From positions 4,625,057-4,689,056 of the forward strand of contig NZ_KB913029.1 in the NCBI RefSeq assembly GCF_000384115.1: a stretch of DNA of 64,000 bases. The letters run 5' to 3'. Both the position numbers and the translations under genes were made by a program. Shown one piece after another: positions 29,849-31,151 of this stretch. A model generated the notes under the pieces. It searched no databases and was not told where the DNA came from. It worked only from the letters and a program-made list of their open reading frames with translations. Position 1 is the first letter of the stretch. Every line of letters begins with the position of its first letter. The stretch comes from Sporichthya polymorpha DSM 43042 (GTDB taxonomy: Bacteria > Actinomycetota > Actinomycetes > Sporichthyales > Sporichthyaceae).

Positions 29849-30271
29849 CTAGACGCAGGCCGCCTGCGGGCACGGGACGTCGAGCATCGCGGCGACGAGG
29901 GCGACGAAGGTCGCGGCGTCGCGCAGAAGATCGTCGGCCTCGCGGGCCGTCACGGCGCGGGTGAGGCCGGCCTCGGCGGCGGCGCGCTTGCCGGCGTTGG
30001 CGGCGAAGAACGCGGCCCACTCCGAGAGCTCCGGCGCGACGACGACGAGCAGCTCCCATGCCGAACGCGGCCGGCGCCGCTTGCCCGTCACCGGCTGGGC
30101 GCGGACCGCGAGGACCGCCGCCGCGCCGCGGAGGGCGGCGAGATGGGCGGCGGCGTAGCGGTCGACGGGACGGGTGGCCACGTTCGCCGCGTTCAGGCAG
30201 TGGCCGGCGGCGTTCAGCAGCTCCTGCGCCCCGGAACGCGGCGCGGCCGGGTGCTCGATGACCAGGCTCAT
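29849..30271 (-). CDS. SAV_6107-family HEPN domain protein
   Basis: A 140-residue all-helical protein. LLNAAGHCLNAANVATRPVD leads into RYAAAHLAALRG, where R38-x4-H43 fits the R-phi-xxx-H motif of HEPN RNases. The C-terminal SAWELLVVVAPELSEWAAFFAANAG block is typical of the SAV_6107-type family in actinobacteria. ATG 30271 follows GAGGAG at ideal spacing. A perfect LexA box lies about 146 bp upstream. RNase or toxin activity is inferred from the motif only, and no partner antitoxin gene is adjacent. Confidence 0.8.
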   Translation of the reverse strand: MSLVIEHPAAPRSGAQELLNAAGHCLNAANVATRPVDRYAAAHLAALRGAAAVLAVRAQPVTGKRRRPRSAWELLVVVAPELSEWAAFFAANAGKRAAAEAGLTRAVTAREADDLLRDAATFVALVAAMLDVPCPQAACV

Positions 30272-30650
30272 GTCGACTCCTCGTTCTCCCGTGCGGCCCC
30301 GGGCGAACGACCGGGGCCGGGCTCTCCCACCGGGCCGGGCGGGCGGGGGTCGAGGCCGGCCGCCCGGCCGGTGAGTGGTGTCGAACCGGCCCGAGCGACC
30401 GCGGGGGGTCAGTCGCTCGAACATCTGTTCGACACGGAGAACAGTACCCCCCACCCCCGACAATCTGGCAAGCACCCATTCCCCCGGCGCGCCGCCGCCC
30501 GAAAAATTTGTCCGGTTCGTCCGGTAAACCGATCTGCGCCCCCCGGCGTCTCCTGTGCAGTTCCACACCGCACGGCCATACCGAGTTGCCCCAACACCGA
30601 GTTGCCCACCCGAGTAGCCGAAGAACTGCCCGACACCCCAGGGGGAAGAG
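30272..30650. other. 379-bp noncoding region between HEPN and AMIN-like genes
   Basis: No credible reading frame is present. It holds a LexA-type box (30417-30432), a GAGCGAC/GTCGCTC hairpin adjacent to it (30393-30418), several GGCCGG-type stems nearer the HEPN gene, and a minus-strand TTGCCA, 19-base gap, TACTGT promoter candidate upstream of the LexA box. The right end carries the GGGGGAAGAG ribosome binding site of the AMIN-like gene and a duplicated CCGAGTTGCCC (30579-30609). Confidence 0.7.
30417..30432. promoter_or_regulatory. LexA (SOS) box
   Basis: TCGAACATCTGTTCGA is a perfect 6-4-6 palindrome that matches the mycobacterial/actinobacterial LexA consensus TCGAAC-N4-GTTCGA. On the minus strand it falls just downstream of a TACTGT -10-like hexamer, facing the HEPN gene, so LexA would block that promoter until DNA damage. 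Control of the divergent AMIN-like gene, 219 bp away, is less likely. Confidence 0.8.
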
Positions 30651-31151
30651 ATGTTCCAGCTCCGCAACCGCAAGACCGCCGTCGCCGCCCTCGCCGCGAC
30701 CGCACTCGCCGGCACCGGCCTGGTCGGCGTCGTCGCGTCCGCCGACGCGGCCGCGAAGACCGCCACGGTTCAGAACCTGCGCACCGGCGCGCACAGCACC
30801 TTCGACCGCGTGGTCATCGACTACACGGGCAAGAAGCCGACCGTGAAGCTCTCCCTCGTCAACAGCCTCTACAGCTGCGGCAAGGGCGACAAGCTGACGA
30901 TCCCCGGCGACAAGATCCTCAAGATCGACCTGACGCCGGCTCAGGCCCACAACGACAAGGGCAAGAGCACGTACTCCGGCCCGGGCCGTCTGTCGACCGC
31001 CAACTACAACCTGTCGACCCTCAAGGGCGTCCGGATGGCGTGCGACTTCGAGGGCCACGTGACGTTCGGCGTCGGCGTCAAGAACCTCAAGAGCTACAGC
31101 GTGAGCCACCTGACGAACCCGAAGCGGGTCGTCGTGGACCTCAAGCGCTGA
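30651..31151 (+). CDS. Secreted AMIN-like domain protein
   Basis: A 166-residue exported protein: basic N-terminus, hydrophobic segment to about residue 30 and an ASADA-type cleavage region, with no lipobox Cys. The mature part has FDRVVIDYTGKKPTVKLS and NPKRVVVDLKR, features of the actinobacterial AMIN-like family, a beta-rich envelope domain. Two cysteines (YSCGK, MACDF) could form a disulfide. A strong GGGGGAAGAG site precedes ATG. Function unknown. Confidence 0.75.
   Translation: MFQLRNRKTAVAALAATALAGTGLVGVVASADAAAKTATVQNLRTGAHSTFDRVVIDYTGKKPTVKLSLVNSLYSCGKGDKLTIPGDKILKIDLTPAQAHNDKGKSTYSGPGRLSTANYNLSTLKGVRMACDFEGHVTFGVGVKNLKSYSVSHLTNPKRVVVDLKR

Follow-up and report, generated by a model that had tools for sequence, protein, structure and literature searches.

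The HEPN_SAV_6107 gene of Sporichthya polymorpha DSM 43042 stands behind a perfect LexA box that recurs upstream of its relatives, and encodes a HEPN-fold protein that lacks the canonical HEPN RNase site. In several other lineages the gene shares operons with error-prone DNA polymerases, and we propose that its product is an accessory to the translesion synthesis that damage induces, that is, to the SOS mutasome, a role to which we assign a probability of about 0.62. Judging from its promoter sequence, the gene would be repressed by LexA and is probably also activated by PafBC. The features discussed here (Table 1) lie in a 64,000-nucleotide stretch of contig NZ_KB913029.1, hereafter the window; the one-contig 5.5-Mb genome is referred to as the host genome.

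Table 1. Features of the HEPN_SAV_6107 locus (window coordinates), with the surveyed loci that carry a second box-like palindrome
Feature	Position	Strand	Basis
HEPN_SAV_6107 gene, 140 aa, ATG at 30271, stop at 29849	29849..30271	-	PF18726
Shine-Dalgarno sequence GAGGAG, 5 nt before the HEPN ATG	30277..30282		
Untranslated leader, 145 nt, GC-rich, predicted fold	30272..30416	-	folding computation
LexA (SOS) box TCGAACATCTGTTCGA, perfect TCGAAC-N4-GTTCGA palindrome	30417..30432	.	motif scan
-10 element TACTGT, toward HEPN gene	30441..30446	-	promoter alignment
PafBC (RecA-NDp) motif TGTCGG-N10-TA-N3-T, exact match to published consensus	30441..30462	-	motif scan
-35-like element TTGCCA, begins 39 nt before box	30466..30471	-	promoter alignment
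Divergent AMIN-like gene	30651..31151	+	PF24837, E 1.1e-33
Loci with second box-like palindrome	L087, L089, L103, L112, L116; L092, L102, L104		

The initial annotation had described an exact SOS box about 146 bp upstream of a SAV_6107-type HEPN gene, and both statements stand: the complete palindrome occurs at this one place in the window, and the distance from box to ATG measures 145 bp. When up to three mismatches to the exact 16-mer are allowed, the window has five matches, against 0.35 expected. Across the host genome, the 14-mer core CGAAC-N4-GTTCG is found at 37 places, compared with two for a reversed-pattern control, and 14 of the 37 have the full 16-mer box. The genes behind full boxes include recA, lexA (divergent from a LysM gene), imuA' (NF058630, 168 bits, cut-off 65), imuB, alkB (an alkB-type 2OG-Fe(II) oxygenase gene), DUF222 genes and the HEPN gene; dinB is preceded by a one-off box. 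In M. tuberculosis, RecA-dependent genes are of the same kinds, with lexA, alkB, imuA'-imuB-dnaE2 and HNH endonucleases among them (PMC8151990). With a consensus SOS box at its promoter, the HEPN gene is a predicted member of the LexA regulon of the host genome. About eight DUF222-type genes in the same genome each have a perfect LexA box directly upstream and, some being near-identical paralogues, may constitute a large SOS-controlled paralogue family.

Conservation of the box was assessed by counting perfect 12/12 matches within 900 nt upstream of the HEPN domain, with the 900 nt downstream of the gene as control. A search of this kind had been suggested along with the original description, and the outcome bears it out. 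Perfect upstream boxes were present at 36/48 loci of class-wide relatives (downstream control, 0/46), at 70/80 named GTDB loci (3/77) and at all 30 loci of a second, order-wide draw (0/30), so that the pooled control amounts to 3/153. We therefore consider it very probable that the SAV_6107 HEPN family as such is under SOS control. Three named Streptomyces loci and eleven further loci, probably also from Streptomyces, retain the HEPN gene with no upstream LexA box; there, LexA control appears to have been lost or changed, consistent with the main text of a LexA study of S. venezuelae, which does not mention HEPN (PMC9380542). A weaker box-like palindrome some 60-75 nt upstream of the perfect box recurs in Dactylosporangium and Klenkia.

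The promoter proposed earlier to read into the HEPN gene, TTGCCA/TACTGT, is likewise there: the two hexamers are separated by a 19-bp spacer, in a layout common to related HEPN promoters. The TACTGT hexamer ends 8 nt before the box, which thus lies over the expected transcription start. A standard sigma-70 scan found no promoter upstream of the HEPN gene because these hexamers and their spacing fall outside the rule of the scan. When 144 distinct upstream segments were aligned on the box, a fixed layout emerged: counted back from the box, TTGAC stands at 36-42 nt and TGTC(A/G) at about 30 nt, and TAnnnT has its end at 8-10 nt. In the window promoter these elements are TTGCC at 39, TGTCG at 30 and TACTGT, whose end is at 8. 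The first reading, which had only the -35/-10 pair, overlooked the PafBC element at -26. This motif, defined by the consensus TGTCGG-N10-TA-N3-T of PMC8151990, has one exact match in the window against 0.09 expected and reads toward the HEPN gene, as would be expected of a PafBC-regulon gene. Its TGTC(A/G)(G/C) form was found in 34/144 related HEPN promoters, against 0.065 expected in shuffled sequences. Genes that combine an SOS box with a RecA-NDp motif have been described (PMC8223512). The promoter family presented here would couple repression by LexA to a PafBC-type element, the spacing between the two sites being constant. Leader and box together (30272-30432, 161 nt) are predicted to fold at -91.5 kcal/mol (z = -2.5, with 3/200 shuffles as good), a modest signal, and the leader sequence is partly kept in two genomes of the same genus.

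The HEPN_SAV_6107 gene is present in a single copy in the host genome, and its product belongs to PF18726 (E 2.8e-36; 124.4 bits with a gathering cut-off of 27.2; positions 1-97 of 98). The AF2 model consists of six helices (pLDDT 91.9), and its structural matches run end to end. The best of them place the protein in the HEPN superfamily, with Z 14.9 for 2hsb (rmsd 2.4 over 116 residues) and Z 12.8 for the sacsin HEPN domain. HepT toxins follow at Z 8-9, and HepT, Csm6 and AbiV together span Z 8-10.

That similarity to HepT, Csm6 and AbiV is part of what favours a damage-induced RNA-cleaving or dormancy effector, the role put forward in the initial annotation, in which R38-x4-H43 would form the RNase site. 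The two residues are indeed present, and R38 is invariant in 170/170 distinct family sequences. Position 43 is less constant, with H in 149 sequences, Y in 18 and Q in 3; the 21 sequences that lack the histidine include Pseudonocardia, Amycolatopsis and Allokutzneria loci, all with a perfect box, so that SOS control is independent of the R-x4-H pattern. In the model, R38-x4-H43 lies on helix 2, away from the canonical site: the catalytic R102/H107 of HepT map near residues 95-108, just before the last helix, by an estimate from collinear ranges rather than a residue-level superposition. At that position R96 is kept in 165/170 sequences, and none of the 165 has a histidine +4 to +7 after it. 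The protein thus has the HEPN fold but not the RNase site that is canonical for HEPN domains (R-x4-6-H before the last helix), in line with the listing of the SAV_6107 family as lacking an RNase motif (Anantharaman et al., PMC3710099). There is no linked antitoxin gene; the sole PADLOC match, to PDC-M05B, is weak (E 0.0015), and a defence-system reading was dropped accordingly. With the motif away from the catalytic position and residue 43 variable, we reject RNA cleavage as the best explanation and regard it as unlikely. What survives of the original proposal is the damage control, given the conserved box and the host regulon, whereas neither the RNase motif nor dormancy is borne out. The conservation of R38 and H43 perhaps marks a binding face.

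The gene neighbourhoods point to translesion DNA synthesis. We surveyed 60 related genomes, 48 of which have the HEPN gene. In many genomes the box and the HEPN gene are 200-600 nt apart, the intervening gene being DUF6504 (PF20114, E 7e-19), and the order under the box is DUF6504, HEPN, a DnaE2-family polymerase and DinB, often with a methyltransferase. DUF6504 lies immediately upstream of HEPN in 19/48 genomes, and in Pseudonocardia the upstream gene is a marginal DUF6504 relative only. A DnaE2-type polymerase is encoded within 10 kb downstream of HEPN in 18/48 genomes, on the same strand in all 18 and at 520 bp or less in 17. DinB was found near HEPN in 11 of the 48 genomes. ImuB was near it in 4, and relative to the cassette HEPN can lie on either side. 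In Dactylosporangium, Virgisporangium and Stackebrandtia (Micromonosporales) and their relatives, HEPN precedes imuA'-imuB-dnaE2; in two genomes it stands on the other side of this cassette.

Two kinds of polymerase are involved. The dnaE2 of the Micromonosporales cassettes encodes a true DnaE2, with 61-65% identity to that of the host, whereas the DnaE-family polymerase of the DUF6504 operons is about equally distant from host DnaE1 and DnaE2 (27-34% identity). Among the 60 genomes, 29 have the second DnaE2-type polymerase and 26 have ImuB, with zero overlap, and DUF6504 accompanies this polymerase in 25/27 genomes. DnaE2B and ImuA/ImuB are likewise mutually exclusive (PMC12926913), and from this context we infer that the operon polymerase is DnaE2B, an assignment made by neighbourhood rather than by tree. 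Both ImuB-C and DnaE2 have been established as components of mutasomes (PMC3765255, PMC6511836, PMC12926913). In several lineages HEPN is operonic with ImuB-C, DnaE2-type or Y-family genes. The similarity of DUF6504 to the ImuB tail is weak (hmmsearch best 14 bits with a tiny database; hhalign probability 5%), and the equation with ImuB-C accordingly leans on PMC3765255 and PMC6511836.

The host genome belongs to the ImuB class, and its HEPN gene stands alone with the box kept: imuA'-imuB-dnaE2 lies at 3.57 Mb, dinB at 1.67 Mb and HEPN at 4.655 Mb. The presence and absence of HEPN and mutasome across the genomes did not discriminate, the profile being uninformative because polymerase cassettes are near-universal. 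The HEPN gene is often found just upstream of the cell-division (dcw) cluster; at four loci and others, HEPN is followed by DUF3040, in some cases after DinB or a methyltransferase, and, as far as the sequence was read, by mraZ. One contig filed as a Spirochaetaceae metagenome-assembled genome carries an actinobacterial HEPN operon and is probably mis-binned.

HEPN operons with polymerases in several lineages fit an accessory of error-prone polymerases. In the mechanism that we envisage, LexA bound to the box just downstream of the -10 element would block transcription in the undamaged cell. Upon damage, RecA on single-stranded DNA would bring about LexA cleavage, while PafBC, activated by single-stranded DNA, would bring RNA polymerase to the -26 motif, and expression of HEPN would coincide with that of imuA'-imuB-dnaE2 and dinB. 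The protein is probably a helical-bundle dimer; it would then bind either the assembly of error-prone polymerases or nucleic acid where forks have stalled, and modulate polymerase access or activity. More specifically, SAV_6107 HEPN might be an unrecognised dedicated subunit or regulator of both actinobacterial mutasome types (ImuA'-ImuB-DnaE2, and DUF6504/ImuB-C with the second DnaE2 type and DinB), controlled by LexA and PafBC together, a tentative proposal that we put slightly below even odds.

Several observations weigh against a mutasome role. The host and 19 other of the 48 HEPN genomes have HEPN more than 10 kb from these polymerase genes; HEPN is missing from mycobacteria, which have imuB-dnaE2, and from several small genomes with DUF6504 and the DnaE2 type, and Streptomyces has HEPN without the box. 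The polymerase neighbours could owe their position to common regulation and not to a common machinery.

LexA control in one species is already known, if the identity of the gene is as we suppose. In C. glutamicum, cg2381 is given as a conserved hypothetical gene of the LexA regulon (Jochmann 2009, as cited in PMC5055667), and its induction by ciprofloxacin (M = 3.86) equals that of recA (PMC5055667). The mraZ gene of this species is cg2378 (PMC5055667), three locus numbers from cg2381. Presumed Corynebacterium genomes in our set (small, of one genus, in the mycobacterial family) have the order HEPN-DUF3040-mraZ, and C. glutamicum has a PF18726 match; taken together, gene order and match indicate that cg2381 is probably the orthologue of the HEPN_SAV_6107 gene. 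The position two genes upstream of mraZ in these genomes, the recurrence of HEPN-MTase-DUF3040 in other families, and the rank of the gene among the most induced LexA genes of C. glutamicum, next to divS (PMC5055667), would also suit an SOS cell-cycle checkpoint, in which HEPN delays division or envelope synthesis under damage in the manner of DivS or YneA. In many genomes, however, the same neighbourhood also contains dinB and DnaE2-type genes, the host already has an SOS gene with a LysM domain beside lexA, and the HEPN protein has no membrane or FtsZ-binding features; we judge a checkpoint to be about as improbable as RNA cleavage.

Nor do we favour a nucleic-acid-binding regulator of the SOS response itself, one that modulates RecA filaments, for example, and has no connection to polymerases. 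The conserved arginines of the family (R38, R48, R57, R96, R110 and R117) would suit such a protein, and RNA binding has been proposed for non-catalytic HEPN domains (PMC3710099). In the neighbourhoods examined, however, there is no recurrent linkage to recA, recX or lexA, and the linkage that is seen is to DUF6504, the DnaE2 type, DinB and ImuB, which makes this regulator, too, an improbable candidate. That the box mainly controls the divergent AMIN-like gene, with HEPN a bystander, is highly improbable: the box does lie between the two divergent genes, about 218 bp from where the AMIN-like gene starts, but it accompanies HEPN relatives through differing neighbourhoods, at a fixed distance after a promoter reading toward HEPN. 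The AMIN-like protein has a signal-like N-terminus, and from its position upstream of both genes the box may exert dual control.

These observations connect a protein family of actinobacteria that had no explanation with the SOS response and with error-prone DNA polymerases, and thereby suggest a function that can be tested. Were it a mutasome factor, SAV_6107 HEPN would open a new way to influence damage-induced mutagenesis beyond the mycobacteria, and would be a further HEPN fold that lacks the canonical RNase site, here at work in the metabolism of DNA and not of RNA. The mutasome link, the double promoter, the HEPN identity and the breadth of LexA control appear to be unreported in the literature that we found.

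Among known systems, DivS, YneA and Rv2719c, the SOS division inhibitors, resemble SAV_6107 HEPN as small LexA-controlled accessory proteins. They carry LysM or membrane features, and in the host their place is already filled by the LysM gene beside lexA. MNT-HEPN toxins (HepT, SO_3166) share the fold, whereas SAV_6107 HEPN has no MNT partner, lacks the canonical motif and is LexA-controlled. The cg2381 gene is a closer parallel, an SOS-induced conserved hypothetical near mraZ, where related genomes carry HEPN; in the literature found it is not described as HEPN or mutasome-linked. The ImuA'-ImuB-DnaE2 mutasome of the M. tuberculosis type is also LexA-controlled, is operonic with HEPN in the three Micromonosporales genera named above, and is represented in the host by a cassette with its own LexA boxes; HEPN, however, is no described component of it, is absent from the sampled mycobacterial genus and is unlinked to the cassette in the host. 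The putative DnaE2B-[ImuB-C]-PolY mutasomes of Actinobacteria (PMC12926913) similarly encode DUF6504 (a standalone ImuB-C-like protein), a DnaE2-type polymerase and DinB together, and the polymerase set of the HEPN operons occurs in genomes without ImuB, as reported there for DnaE2B. Although the literature found does not mention a HEPN subunit of these mutasomes, in the operons described here HEPN is encoded between DUF6504 and the polymerase.
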